NCBI GenBank assembly: GCA_027306655.1
Contig: DAHUZL010000056.1
Span: 1 to 35,338, forward strand
Reading direction: 5' to 3'
Length of the DNA stretch: 35,338 nucleotides
Source: Candidatus Dormiibacterota bacterium
Lineage (GTDB): Bacteria > Chloroflexota > Dormibacteria > Aeolococcales > Bog-877
Of the stretch, positions 16,605 to 35,113 are shown piece after piece. The position numbers were made by a program, and so were the translations under genes. The notes beneath the pieces are model-generated. The model saw only the letters and a program-made list of their open reading frames with translations, had not been told where the DNA came from and did not search any database. Position 1 is the first letter of the stretch; every line of letters starts with the position of its first letter.

Positions 16605-19013
16605 TCAGCGCGTCCCCGCCGGCCCAGGGGGGGGGGCCGTCGCCACGGCGGGCGCGGACGCGGAGATGGGGAGGACCGCGCGGAAGACCGATCCGAATCC
16701 CTCCGCCCCGGCGTGCACCGACACCGCGCCCCCCATGGCGGCCACCAGCCCTCGCACGACGGTGAGGCCGATCCCGGTGCCGGGGCCGTTCACCGACCCC
16801 GCCGGCGGCGCCGGCCCGCGCCGGAACCGCTCGAAGATCGCGCCCCGCTCCGCCTCCGGGATCCCCGTCCCCCGGTCCTCGACCTCGAACACGGCGGTGT
16901 CGCCCGCACGCCACGCCCGCACCGAGATCGGCGCGCCGTCGGGGGAGAACTTGACGGCGTTGCCGACCAGCTGGGCCAGCACCTGGCGGAGGCGGTCGGG
17001 ATCGGTGGGGATGAGCGCGCAGGTGTCCTCCACCGTCACCGACACCGGGTGGCGATCCCTCGCGTGCACCGCCTGGACCGCCTCGTCGAGGATCGGACGC
17101 ACCCGCGCCGGGGCGAGCCGAATCTCGGTGGAGTCGTCCTCGATCCGGGAGAGGGCGAGGAGGTCCTCCACCAGGAGGTGGAGCCGGGTCGCCTCGTCGT
17201 CGATGATGCGCAGCAGCTGCACTTCCTCGGCCTCGGGGATCGTGCCCGACCGGAGCAGGGTGGCCGCCCCGCAGATGCTGGTGAGCGGGGTGCGCAGCTC
17301 GTGCGAGACCGTCGAAACGAAGTCGTCCTTCATTCGATCCAGCTCGCGCTGCTGGGTGACGTCGCGGAAGACGGCGACGGTGCCCCCGAGGTCGCCCGGG
17401 AGCCGGTGCGCCTCCATGGCGAGGAGGTGGTCGGCGTGCTGCCCCACCAGGCCGACCCCGTGGTCCGCCGTCTCGCCGTCATCGGGGGGCCCCCCGGCGG
17501 CGGCGCGGGCGGCGGCCACCGCCGGCAGATCCGCCGCCGCCAGCGGGCGGTCGCGCTCGTCGCGCCAGTCGAGCGTCGCCAGGTAGGTGGCGAGATCGAG
17601 CCCGGGACGGCACCCCGGCAGCAGCACGGTGCCACGGGCGTTGATGCTGGTCACCCGTCCGCGCGCGTCGCACACCACCACCGCCTCGTCGAGGGCGGCC
17701 AGGGTGCCCCGCAGCTCGCCGAGCAGGCAGGCCTGCTGGGTCGCCAGCGCGGCGAAGGCGGCGAGCGCCCTCAGGGTCTCCTGCGCCTCGCGGCCGAGCT
17801 CGGGCCGGCCGCCGTGGACCACCAGCAGGGCGGCGTCGGCGTGCCCGACCACGTGGAAGGGCAGGATGGTGACCGAGTCGGCGCCCGAGGCGGACGCCCC
17901 GACCGCCTCCACCGTCGCCGGCTCGCCCCCGACGATGGCATGGGGCGCCGCCCGCATGGCGGCCTCGAGCAGCGGCACGGTCCGGGTGGGGGCGTCGGCG
18001 ACCACCGCCCGCAGGCGGGTCGTCCGCTCCGCCTCCCCCTGCCAGGCGATCCCGGCCGCATCCGACTCGGTCAGGTCGCGGGCGGCGGTGGCGACCTCGT
18101 GGAGGAGCCGGTCCAGGTCGCCGGCCGTTCGGAGCGCCGTGGTGATGCGGCGGATCCGCTCGGTCGCCTGGCGGCGCCGCTCGCCCTCGGCGCGGGACAG
18201 GAACACCAGCCCGAGCAGCAGCACCTCCAGCGAGACCGGGACGGCCGCCCAGCCCGCGTACCAGGTGGGGGTCCGGGGGGTGGCGAAGAGGAGACCGGCG
18301 GGCGCCGCGATCAGGATCACGCACACCGTCTGCACCCACGGGGCGAGGGGGTCGGCCGGGTGGCGCCAGCGCAGGCGGGTCCAGGTGAGGAGGGGAAACT
18401 CCATCGCCACCAGCGGGACCACCTCCAGCACCCGGCCGGCCAGGGTCGGCCGGTCGAAGGACCCGAGGTTGGGCAGCAGCGGCGTGAAGGCCAGGACCGC
18501 CGCCAGCAGCGCCAACCCGGTGATGACCGCGACCCCCCCGGCGGCGACCGGGGCGCGCCGCACCACGTCGGCGCGGCCGTGCCCGTCGGGGTCGGCGGGC
18601 GGGGTGGCCGCCACCGCCACCGCGAGGGTGGTGAGCGCGAGCAGCACCAGCCAGGCTCCCGCCGAGGCCGGCTCGGCGCCGATCCCGCGCGCCCCCAGGA
18701 TGCCGGGCGTCACCAGTGCCGCGGCGCCGAGGAGCACCGCGACCGTCAGCAGCGAGCCGCCCAGGAACTGGGCCCAGCCGCCGTCAGGGGAGCGTCCCCG
18801 CTCCAGACTCACCACGCCGGCCATCACCGCTCCCACCGTGGCCACGGCGATGCTGGTGGGGATCCACCACACCAGCCCGCGGGCGGCTCCGAGGGGGATC
18901 GCGGCCAGGACCGCGAACCCCGCGGCGACGCCGAGACCGGCGCCCAGGGCCGGCCCGGCGGCGCGCACGGCGCCGCGGACCAGGGGTTCGGGTCGGCGGG
19001 AGAGGGTGGACAT
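16605..19013 (-). CDS. Multi-pass sensor histidine kinase with GAF/PAS-like region
   Basis: The 802-residue product begins with about eight hydrophobic segments (AGPALGAGLGVAAGFAVLAAI to VSLEVLLLGLVFL, residues 20-270). A GAF-like domain follows (about 300-450) and a PAS-like domain (LDEAVVVCDARGRVTSINARG ... GTVAVFRDVTQQRELDRMK). Then come HisKA with phospho-His in FVSTVSHELRTPLTSI and HATPase with N box LVGNAVKFSPDG, G1 EDRGTGIPEAERG and G2 GPGTGIGLTVVRG. No response regulator is adjacent. ATG 19013 is chosen as start (MSTLSRRPEPLV); an ATG at 19079 would add 22 residues. The region just upstream is the right-end hairpin block of an IS607 element, so its promoter may have been altered. Confidence 0.9.
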   Translation of the reverse strand: MSTLSRRPEPLVRGAVRAAGPALGAGLGVAAGFAVLAAIPLGAARGLVWWIPTSIAVATVGAVMAGVVSLERGRSPDGGWAQFLGGSLLTVAVLLGAAALVTPGILGARGIGAEPASAGAWLVLLALTTLAVAVAATPPADPDGHGRADVVRRAPVAAGGVAVITGLALLAAVLAFTPLLPNLGSFDRPTLAGRVLEVVPLVAMEFPLLTWTRLRWRHPADPLAPWVQTVCVILIAAPAGLLFATPRTPTWYAGWAAVPVSLEVLLLGLVFLSRAEGERRRQATERIRRITTALRTAGDLDRLLHEVATAARDLTESDAAGIAWQGEAERTTRLRAVVADAPTRTVPLLEAAMRAAPHAIVGGEPATVEAVGASASGADSVTILPFHVVGHADAALLVVHGGRPELGREAQETLRALAAFAALATQQACLLGELRGTLAALDEAVVVCDARGRVTSINARGTVLLPGCRPGLDLATYLATLDWRDERDRPLAAADLPAVAAARAAAGGPPDDGETADHGVGLVGQHADHLLAMEAHRLPGDLGGTVAVFRDVTQQRELDRMKDDFVSTVSHELRTPLTSICGAATLLRSGTIPEAEEVQLLRIIDDEATRLHLLVEDLLALSRIEDDSTEIRLAPARVRPILDEAVQAVHARDRHPVSVTVEDTCALIPTDPDRLRQVLAQLVGNAVKFSPDGAPISVRAWRAGDTAVFEVEDRGTGIPEAERGAIFERFRRGPAPPAGSVNGPGTGIGLTVVRGLVAAMGGAVSVHAGAEGFGSVFRAVLPISASAPAVATAPPPGPAGTR

Positions 19014-19097
19014 GGCGGGGGAGGGCGGCCCGCCGCGAGCGGCCAGGTTCGCCCAACCGTTCCTCAAGCCGCGACCCATGCGACGGCGGCGTGCGGG

Positions 19098-19172
19098 CCA
19101 CCGGTCAAGCCGGTGGGCTCCGGGGCGACCCCGGTTCCCACGTCGCCGCGGTCTGCCGGGCTCACCCCCGGC
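19098..19172 (-). ncRNA. omegaRNA-like three-hairpin scaffold / right end of IS607 element
   Basis: Read on the minus strand after the tnpA stop, three stems occur in order: GCCGGG with CCCGGC (19172-19155), CCGGGG with CCCCGG (19134-19120), and CCACCGG with CCGGTGG around a five-base loop (19116-19098). The same order and spacing recur at 26058-25986 beside a tnpB remnant. The two inner hairpins match at 37 of 41 bases, and the first stem differs completely in sequence while keeping pairing. That pattern fits the structured guide-RNA scaffold that TnpB elements encode at their right end. No tnpB is present here. RNA production is inferred. Confidence 0.5.
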
Positions 19173-19199
19173 CCCTCGTCGTGACGTGGCGGACCTGGG

Positions 19200-19781
19200 T
19201 CATCGCGCCGCCTCGACCGGCTGCGCGGCGCAGCGCAGGGCCCGGGCCGCTCGCGTGCGCGCCGACCGCCGACCGTAGAGCCGGGCGCACAGGCTGGTCA
19301 TCACCTCGGTCATGTCGCGGACCAGATCATCCGCTCCCTCGGCGGCGTCAACCACGATGAGCCTCCGCCCGGCGCCGAGCAGCGCGGCCTCGATGTATTC
19401 CGAGCCCAGGCGCGCGAGCCGGTCGCGGTGCTCGACCACGATCGTGGTGACGGTCGCATCGGCGAGCAGGCGCCGGAGCTTCGGACGGGCGCCGGTGATG
19501 CCCGAGCCCACCTCGCTGACGGCCTGCGTCACGGGCAGCTGCTGGGCGGTCGCCCAGGTGACCAGCCGGCCCAGCTGTCGGTCGAGGTCGGCCCGCTGGT
19601 CGTGGGAGGAGACACGCGCGTACAGCACCACCCGCTCGGCCTCGCCCGTCAGGGCTTCCTCGACCAGGATGGTCCCGGACGGGAGCTGGCGAGCGGGGAC
19701 CGGGAGGGTGCCGGCCCGGAACCACCGCATGGCGGTCCGGGGGTGGATGTGCTGGGTCCGCGCCCACTGGCTCAGCTTCAC
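19200..19781 (-). CDS. tnpA: IS607-family serine recombinase TnpA
   Basis: The 193-residue product has an N-terminal MerR-like helix-turn-helix (MKLSQWARTQHIHPRTAMRWFRAGTLPVPA) that binds element ends. A small serine-recombinase catalytic domain follows with S58 in VVLYARVSSHDQRADLDRQ and later VVEHRDRLARLGSEYIEAAL. IS607 TnpA excises and inserts elements through a 5'-phosphoserine link with little site preference. All family motifs are intact. The GTG is leaderless (TAGGCT six bases before). tnpB, normally the next gene, is missing; the stop is followed about 30 bases later by the right-end hairpin block. The copy at 34543 is clearly related but frameshifted. Confidence 0.93.
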   Translation of the reverse strand: MKLSQWARTQHIHPRTAMRWFRAGTLPVPARQLPSGTILVEEALTGEAERVVLYARVSSHDQRADLDRQLGRLVTWATAQQLPVTQAVSEVGSGITGARPKLRRLLADATVTTIVVEHRDRLARLGSEYIEAALLGAGRRLIVVDAAEGADDLVRDMTEVMTSLCARLYGRRSARTRAARALRCAAQPVEAAR

Positions 19782-19787
19782 CCGTCC

Positions 19788-19793
19788 AGCCTA
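19788..19793 (-). promoter_or_regulatory. -10 element for leaderless tnpA
   Basis: Minus-strand TAGGCT, six bases (GGACGG), then GTG at 19781. The element thus carries a host-like leaderless promoter. Confidence 0.55.
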
Positions 19794-19910
19794 TCACGTC
19801 CAACAACCGTTTGCGCCAACTTGTCACCATCTCTTTGAGCAGCTCCCTAACCCTACCGCCGATTCGCCCGGGGCGGGCCCTCCTTCGTGCGCCGGGAGGT
19901 CGGCGCGCCC

Positions 19911-25806: not shown

Positions 25807-25979
25807 TCCCGGCTCCGGCGGCACCGGTCCGGGAGGGGCTGGAGCGGCGCTCACGGGGACGGGTCGTCTCCGAGCTGGCCCGTCGCGACCTGTCGGCCCG
25901 CGTCGCCGGCATCGACCTGGAGGACGGGTTCCGTTCCTACGCAACGGACAGGAGGGACAGGCGGTCCCGCTGCCGCTGA
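25807..25979 (+). other. Stretch between sufS and the tnpB remnant with coding-like residue
   Basis: One plus frame with mostly G or C third positions reads PVREGLERRSRGRVVSELA and then RRDLSARVAGIDLEDGFRSY before a stop at 25979. It has no start codon of its own. It may be a piece of a gene broken by insertion or rearrangement. No family is recognised. Confidence 0.25.
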
Positions 25980-26614
25980 CGCGGACCACCGGTCGAGCCG
26001 GTGGGCTCCGGGGCAGTCCCGGTTCCTGCTTCCCAGCCACCTGCCAGCGACACGCTGGACTTCCGGTCGGCTCCACAGGCAGTTATCGTCTCCGCCGCAC
26101 TGGCGGTGACGGGGTGGTGGGCGTCGGCCCACCACGCAAGATTGCGGGCCGCGTTGAGGTCCCGGTCGAGGACCACGCCGCAGGCGTCGCAGCGGTAGGT
26201 CCGCTCCCGGAGCAGCAGCTCGGCCGTGACGGTCCCGCAGTTCGAACAGCTCTGGGAGCTGGGGAACCAGCGGTCGGCGACGACGAGCCGGCTCCCGTAC
26301 CAGGCGCATTGGTACGCGAGCTGCCGGCGGAACTCGCCGAAGCCGGCGTCGGCCAGGGACCGGGCCAGCCGGTGGGTCCGCAGCATGCCGCGGACGTTGA
26401 GGTCTTCCACCACGATCCGGCGGTGGGTCTTGGCCAGCGCGGTGGTCAGCTTGTGCAGGCGATCGCGCCGGATCGCCGCCACCCGGGCGTGATGCCGCGC
26501 GAGCCGGCGCGCAGCCTTCGCCGCGTTGCGGGAACCGCGACGCGTGCGGCTCTGGGCACGGGAGAGCCGGCGCAGCTTGCGCAGGCCCCGGAGGCGCCCG
26601 ACCGGTTGGGCCCT
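25937..26614 (-). pseudogene. 5'-truncated tnpB (RNA-guided nuclease) of an IS607/IS605-type element
   Basis: The 225 open codons match only the C-terminal half of TnpB. They include RTRRGSRNAAKAARRLARHHARVAA, the RuvC-II region IVVEDLNVRGML (catalytic Glu), WYGSRLVVADRWFPSSQSC, the zinc finger CSNCG ... CDACG and RuvC-III VLDRDLNAARNLA (catalytic Asp). The N-terminal half with RuvC-I and the REC/wedge domains is gone: an in-frame TGA at 26617-26615 ends similarity, and plus-strand sequence of an unrelated gene begins there. The 3' coding part runs through the three-hairpin block, as in intact elements. It cannot make a working nuclease. Confidence 0.88.
25986..26058 (-). ncRNA. omegaRNA-like three-hairpin scaffold of the tnpB remnant
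   Basis: On the minus strand the stems are CCAGCG/CGCTGG (26058-26044), CCGGG/CCCGG (26022-26008) and CCACCGG/CCGGTGG (26004-25986), in the same order as at 19172-19098. It overlaps the 3' end of the tnpB frame, as expected for TnpB guide RNAs. Expression is not shown by sequence. Confidence 0.5.
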
Positions 26615-34542: not shown

Positions 34543-35113
34543 ATGAAGCTCGCCGCCTGGGCTCGGGCCGATGGCATCCACCCCCAGACCGCGCTGCGCT
34601 GGTGGCGCGAGGGCACGCTCCCGGTGCCGGCGCGGAAGGTGGGGCCGCGGACGATCCTGGTGGACCACGCGCCGGCCGCCGGGGCGCCGTCGGTGGCGCG
34701 GGACGCCCGCTTCTCCTCCTATGACCAGCGGGCCGACCTCGACCGCAAGCTTGGGCGCCTGGGCATCGGCCCACGACCTGGCGGTGGCCCACGCCGCCAG
34801 CGAGGTGGGCTCCGGGCCGACCGGGGCGCGGCCGAAGCTGCGCCGTCTGCTCGCCGGCGCGACAGTCACGACCATCGTGGTCGAGCACCGCGACCGGCTG
34901 GCCCGCCTGGGCTCGGAGTACATCGAGGCCGTCCTGCTCGGGGCCGGGCGCCGTCTCGTCGTGGTGGTGCCGACAGAGGTGGCGGATGATCTGGTCCGGG
35001 ACATGACCGAGGTGCTGACCAGCCTCTGCGCACGGCTCTACGGGCGGCGGGCGGCGCGGGCCCGGGCCAACCACGCCCTGCGGTACGCGGCCCAGCCCGT
35101 CGGGGCCGCCTGA
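34543..35113 (+). pseudogene. tnpA: IS607-family TnpA, frameshifted by an apparent 8-base deletion
   Basis: Frame 1 reads MKLAAWARADGIHPQTALRW then WREGTLPVPARKV and FSSYDQRADLDRKLGRL. Frame 2 continues WASAHDLAVAHAASEVGSG and later TIVVEHRDRLARLGSEYIEA to the stop at 35113. Alignment with the intact copy at 19200-19781 shows 13 bases between the codons for the Arg of DLDRK and the Trp, where 21 are expected, so eight are missing near 34758. CGCCTGG occurs at the site, which fits slippage between short repeats. The catalytic YARVSS is also changed to RDARFSS. Restored length would be 192 residues against 193. Confidence 0.88.

Follow-up and report, generated by a model that had tools for sequence, protein, structure and literature searches.

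A predicted reRNA scaffold orphaned beside an intact IS607-family tnpA in a Candidatus Dormiibacterota genome

TnpB is thought to secure the retention of its transposon by cleaving the site that the transposon has vacated. IS607 elements insert by GG exchange without target duplication, and tnpA alone suffices for their transposition (PMC6188088). The IS607 TnpB of ISXfa1 uses GGG as target-adjacent motif (TAM), and the first flanking nucleotide is counted in its scaffold (PMC10711439). Other IS607 TnpBs, described in a study on RAGATH-18-derived reRNAs, use the TAMs GAGGG or AGGAG (PMC11061315). The same study states that 64% of the RAGATH-18 RNAs adjoin an IS607 TnpB, which leaves about 36% that are not found beside one; the occurrence of RNAs of this kind at a distance from TnpB therefore has a precedent, and a discussion of TnpB-less copies was not found in the passages searched (PMC11061315).

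The locus described here lies on contig C161 of a 2.8-Mb assembly in 233 contigs; "the window" denotes the whole stretch of 35,338 nucleotides that was analysed. Judged by homology and covariation, the block under study is an omegaRNA-type (reRNA) scaffold that stands orphaned beside an intact IS607 tnpA. The initial annotation had arrived at an orphan omegaRNA-like scaffold at this place, and this part of it holds; completeness of the scaffold does not, as its 5' hairpin is lost. The features are collected in Table 1.

Table 1. Features of the window locus, of the other IS607 copies in the window and of the related mini-elements
Feature	Position	Strand	Basis or remark
Entire IS607-family element, from left end through tnpA and tnpB remnant to right-end scaffold	~19057-19852	-	congener empty site
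TAM-like TAGGG, left flank	19851-19855	-	left-end alignment and empty site
tnpA, IS607-family serine transposase, 193 aa, intact	19200-19781	-	Pfam Resolvase; NCBIfam NF033518
tnpB remnant, ATG and four codons (ATG ACC CAG GTC CGC)	19189-19203	-	aligned with six tnpB starts
Right-end RNA scaffold without 5' hairpin H1 (predicted)	19057-19190	-	cmsearch, pair table, GAACGG end
Helices 2-4, stem CCACGTC/GACGTGG and inner hairpin	19138-19189	-	pair table; run length against shuffles
Helices 5 and 6, hairpins CCGGG/CCCGG and CCACCGG/CCGGTGG	19098-19137	-	pair table
Predicted guide, kinase leader	19037-19056	-	abuts right end; matches congener pre-insertion site with few differences
Histidine kinase gene	16605-19013	-	HisKA and HATPase_c domains; start by congener ATG
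Complete scaffold of the 26 kb comparison copy, ends GAACGG	25931-26111	-	R1, 139.8 bits
3' fragment of tnpB in the comparison copy, without RuvC-I region	25937-26482	-	Pfam TNB; NCBIfam IS607_TnpB positions 273-428 of 431
Third IS607 tnpA, frameshifted	34543-35110	+	matched in two pieces, 34543-34764 and 34748-35110, that lie in different frames
tnpB start, runs off contig end	35112-35338	+	tnpB-start alignment
Mini-element C162	C162:8111-8444 (L049:2317-2645)		complete scaffold, no tnpA or tnpB
Mini-element C5	C5:2504-2836 (L048:2005-2334)		complete scaffold, no tnpA or tnpB
Mini-element C211	C211:12054-12383 (L047:2055-2384)		complete scaffold, no tnpA or tnpB

An IS607 insertion that has lost tnpB

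The transposase of the window element is of the IS607 type and of full length, reaching 187 bits against the profile NF033518 (cut-off 110). Four further full-length copies in the genome share 77-82% identity with this transposase, whose nearest named relatives come from metagenome-assembled genomes, one of which is labelled Candidatus Dormiibacterota. The left end resembles the left ends of the other copies. At the distal end of tnpA, the stop codon is overlapped by the ATG with which tnpB starts in six further copies. Here the tnpB reading frame ends after five codons and right-end sequence begins. Of the usual accessory gene nothing else remains: the missing part of tnpB begins with codon 6 and stops immediately short of helix 2 of the right-end RNA, and the earlier description of an intact tnpA without tnpB is borne out.

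In a congeneric genome (G001, locus L209) the same divergent pair of an rrf2-type gene and a kinase gene is present and the element is absent. The uninterrupted site reads GGCGGTAGGG/TTGGGCGG, and the junctions in the window are GGCGGTAGGG/TTAGGGAG on the left and GAACGG/TTGGGCGA on the right. Comparison with the congener reveals no target duplication and GG at both junctions, as in GG exchange; the crossover cannot be placed more precisely than GG(TT). The right ends of related copies read GAACGG, in one case GAAGGG, and the counterpart in the window is found at 19062-19057. The empty site of G001 together with these conserved ends fixes the ends of the element at about 19852 and 19057. The insertion went between the divergent genes for the rrf2-type regulator and the histidine kinase. 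The kinase most likely starts with the ATG at 19013, which matches the congener ATG beyond the insertion site; an alternative ATG at 19079 falls within the element. The element is oriented toward the kinase, with its right end 43 nt ahead of the start codon, and a simple scan of the interval between the two returned no terminator-like site.

The right-end scaffold and its predicted guide

A covariance model (R1) was trained on six tnpB-linked right ends and three mini-elements, with the window locus left out. The nine sequences have in common a predicted structure that opens with the hairpin H1 at the 5' end; helices 2 and 3 make up a long-range stem, helix 4 is an inner hairpin, and helices 5 and 6 are two further hairpins. 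In this set 11 of the 34 pairs are changed on both sides, and covariation amounts to 0.290, where shuffles give 0.134 and slid controls do not exceed 0.074. In an alignment of 39 family loci, which was fitted to the structure and hence leans towards it, 24 of the 34 pairs are changed on both sides (covariation 0.259; shuffles 0.098; slid controls 0.037-0.076). Among the matches of R1 are also IS607 right ends of Frankia and further actinomycetes, spaced from the preceding tnpA as expected. Searches against Rfam gave no match at gathering score and, for the mini-element and tnpB loci, none at E<=1; RAGATH-18 was unmatched. Single-sequence folding with flanks placed both the window locus (z -1.58) and the copy at 26 kb close to shuffles. 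As this method was not decisive, alignment and covariation were relied on.

In the window, R1 retrieves the locus at 19094-19218 on the minus strand (57.5 bits, E=6.7e-10), second to the 26 kb copy, with the next chance match at 15.8 bits. A covariance model of right ends, a check of the kind proposed beforehand, thus recovers a sequence on which it had not been trained, and the locus carries the conserved scaffold of related tnpB right ends. The hairpins following tnpA, which the initial annotation had likened to those at 25986-26058, are by this measure homologous to them. Intact tnpB copies of this genome bear the hairpins at their right ends too, contrary to the sequence condition set beforehand for refutation. 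Helices 3-6 are almost fully paired, and across helices 2-6 two core pairs are broken. Helix 2 retains four of its five pairs with letters absent from the other copies (CCACGTC at 19189-19183, GACGTGG at 19144-19138), in agreement with the original observation of a first stem that differs in sequence and still pairs. It extends to a 7-bp run, as found in about 2% of shuffles. A loss of the 5' strand of this central stem had been considered and was dropped, since the model alignment shows the stem kept with new letters. The block had initially been bounded at 19098-19172; this stretch is scaffold, but it leaves out the 5' strand of helix 2 and the end up to GAACGG. All full scaffolds have the conserved H1 and the linker; at this locus both are lost, and tnpA/tnpB-start sequence stands in their place. 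The window scaffold is homologous to that of copy C12 (88% over 112 nt).

Some further matches deserve mention in their own right. At C5:7910-8002 (L054:2111-2203) lies a tnpB whose 3' end is IS200/IS605-like; it has scaffold helices 1-4 in common with the family and is devoid of helices 5 and 6. On C158 (L125:3029-3110) a degenerate scaffold remnant of 35 bits occurs without tnpB and without a GAACGG end. Short matches of 36-39 bits in G009, G011 and G014 were considered as orphans and left uncounted; they are pieces at contig ends, most of them with traces of tnpB.

Since the predicted RNA would run past 19057, its guide would be TTGGGCGAACCTGGCCGCTC (19056-19037). The earlier proposal of a guide from the kinase region is correct in so far as this sequence belongs to the kinase leader; its start would be at 19056 instead of 19097, a shift of 41 nt that follows from the empty site. 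The target in the congener reads TAGGG/TTGGGCG, so that a guide situated at the end of the element has its counterpart beside a TAM-bearing empty site. The left flank TAGGG is TAM-like and would fit the GGG published for an IS607 TnpB, the TAM at this locus being derived from published IS607 TnpBs. At the occupied site CGG and not GGG precedes the guide sequence, and self-cutting is therefore not expected. No close second guide target beside GGG was found in the genome; with up to three mismatches 18 matches were obtained, compared to 25 for the reversed pattern.

Candidate TnpB partners and mini-elements

The stretch 25931-26600 of the window is a decayed IS607 copy with a 5'-truncated tnpB and without tnpA, and thus harbors a second scaffold without a working cis nuclease. 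As a standard of comparison for the hairpins this copy offers a complete scaffold, but not a complete element. Elsewhere in the genome, the TnpBs of copies C185 and C130 are long, contain the motifs GVDLG, VVVEDLN and DRD and apparently carry an intact D-E-D triad; the motifs are weaker in the TnpBs of C12 and C97. The C185 protein reaches 412 bits against NCBIfam IS607_TnpB and also matches solved TnpBs.

Three elements of about 330 bp in the same genome (G000) are 85-91% alike, and their scaffolds score 136-142 bits with R1, the training set of which includes them. A single weak TnpB-like translation, in the C162 element, overlaps the scaffold. H1 is conserved in these mini-elements although TnpB is not encoded there. 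In pairwise comparison they differ at 3-7 of 127 scaffold positions versus 23-38 of about 166 positions upstream (Fisher tests, p = 2e-3 to 1e-6, limited by n=3 copies with a common history), and their left ends show no such restraint (9-13 of 45 positions changed). The few differences within the scaffold include a compensated change in helix 6, from C-G to T-A. The C5 element is a discrete insertion, since G001 lacks it at the matching site. For the C162 element an empty site was not demonstrated in the congener, where the first ~200 bases of the right flank have no match. With both ends, no transposase, three copies and the empty site of C5, the mini-elements have the properties of MITEs or other non-autonomous elements. 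A phylum-wide scan (301 genomes, two candidates scored per genome) returned none outside G000, a weak negative.

Another genus of the same family (G006) contains three related mini-elements (L091, L100, L123 and in part L122), and a TnpB of this group was not found in its 83% complete assembly. There the scaffolds look decayed: their conservation does not exceed that of the remainder, and their pairing is poorer, the comparison of pairing being one that favors the G000 elements because the model includes them. The contrast fits a loss of constraint where no partner is left, as far as three copies per genome and an incomplete G006 allow. The conserved scaffold of the mini-elements could in part reflect binding of TnpA to the DNA, although the left ends vary freely. 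All six share conserved blocks, GAACAGGYGTWCGC and ACCGGGCGCGTCG, upstream of the scaffold and outside tnpB homology. The sequence TTGACA-N17-TACGCT was considered as a dedicated promoter of the G000 mini-elements and rejected, as it fails a strict scan and is not common to those of G006. In simple promoter and terminator scans none passed, and one terminator-like match was located on the opposite strand of a mini-element.

Possible roles of the scaffold and relation to known systems

We consider it moderately probable that an IS607 insertion lost tnpB by internal deletion and kept tnpA and both ends, and that a readthrough reRNA is possibly loaded by the TnpB of another copy. The deletion would have brought scaffold and tnpB start together near a GCC common to both ends. 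TnpA and the two ends may still permit movement, and the right end would persist in the first place because TnpA needs it. With less certainty, readthrough of the tnpA transcript would yield an H1-less reRNA with the kinase-leader guide, which the TnpB of another copy could load. Such a complex would cut insertion-free DNA at TAGGG plus target, with the consequence that the element is retained or spread. As H1 is missing, the RNA from the window locus may not fold or be processed; use of the scaffold by TnpB in trans would be plausible. The same reasoning would apply with more force to the three mini-elements, which combine a complete scaffold with the lack of any protein gene and are presumably moved by TnpA in trans, and a guide-only role suits them better than the window locus. 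The wider proposal, that TnpB-less elements, i.e. the tnpA-only copy and above all the mini-elements, are guide-only units, each making a reRNA with its own right flank as guide and borrowing TnpB from autonomous relatives to cut sites where the element is absent, is put forward tentatively and is open to considerable doubt.

Among the alternatives, a plain deletion relic fares best and falls just short of an even chance. The right end would then be kept as a transposon end only, its RNA would be functionless and its pairing inherited from a tnpB-bearing parent. The loss of H1 agrees with this, as do the single occurrence of a tnpA-plus-scaffold arrangement among 57 classified family loci and the lack of another guide target in the genome; besides, the ends serve transposition first, for which tnpA alone suffices (PMC6188088). 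On the other hand, a mere relic sits uneasily with only two broken core pairs in helices 2-6 and with a helix 2 that pairs using letters unlike those of the other copies.

That the window copy itself acts as a guide-only locus in trans, its RNA directing the TnpB of another copy against the empty kinase-leader site, we regard as unlikely. Scaffold core, TAM-like TAGGG and guide follow each other in the correct order, the congener has a matching target and full-length TnpBs exist in the genome, but H1 is missing and the contig ends within the TnpB initially named as partner (at 35113). Still more improbable is a regulatory effect on the kinase, exerted by the insertion or its RNA through tnpA readthrough or a bound TnpB repressor complex. 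The element does face the kinase at short distance with no terminator-like site between them; however, binding of a TnpB complex in situ is not to be expected at a site with CGG instead of GGG, the TnpBs of this genome appear catalytically intact and not repressor-like, and absence of the element from the congener marks it as recent or not conserved. Chance hairpins in GC-rich DNA (78% GC), which the folding of locus and flanks little better than shuffles might suggest, are refuted by homology, namely by the score of R1 far above its next chance match and by the similarity to C12.

Should tnpB-less elements keep a constrained guide scaffold, the nuclease would serve other elements as well, and retention would become a shared or parasitised service; this would also help to explain guide RNAs of this kind far from any nuclease gene. 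Under the wider guide-only proposal, one nuclease would be at the disposal of a whole population of non-autonomous elements. The three mini-elements and the window copy permit a direct test, since their flanks are known, a congener provides empty sites and candidate TnpBs are at hand.

Guide RNA loci separate from the nuclease gene were reportedly noted in the OMEGA literature of 2021 as stand-alone omegaRNAs of IscB; the present loci would resemble them in lying apart from a nuclease gene and differ in the nuclease family. Like MITEs and other non-autonomous IS derivatives, the mini-elements keep both ends and no gene; unlike these, they retain a complete and constrained guide-RNA scaffold, and no description of constrained scaffold-only IS607 mini-elements or of MITEs of this type was found in the literature searched. 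ISFba1, with its RAGATH-18-derived reRNA, likewise combines IS607 TnpBs with a structured reRNA and has GAGGG among the TAMs, whereas its RNA does not overlap the 3' end of tnpB as the present predicted RNA does, and the latter has no Rfam match (PMC11061315). ISXfa1 differs from the window copy, in which tnpB is deleted and the predicted RNA is devoid of its 5' hairpin; it agrees with it in the order of tnpA and tnpB, in GG exchange and in an RNA that extends past the element boundary, and its GGG TAM recurs at the left flanks of the present copies, which end in GGG (PMC10711439).
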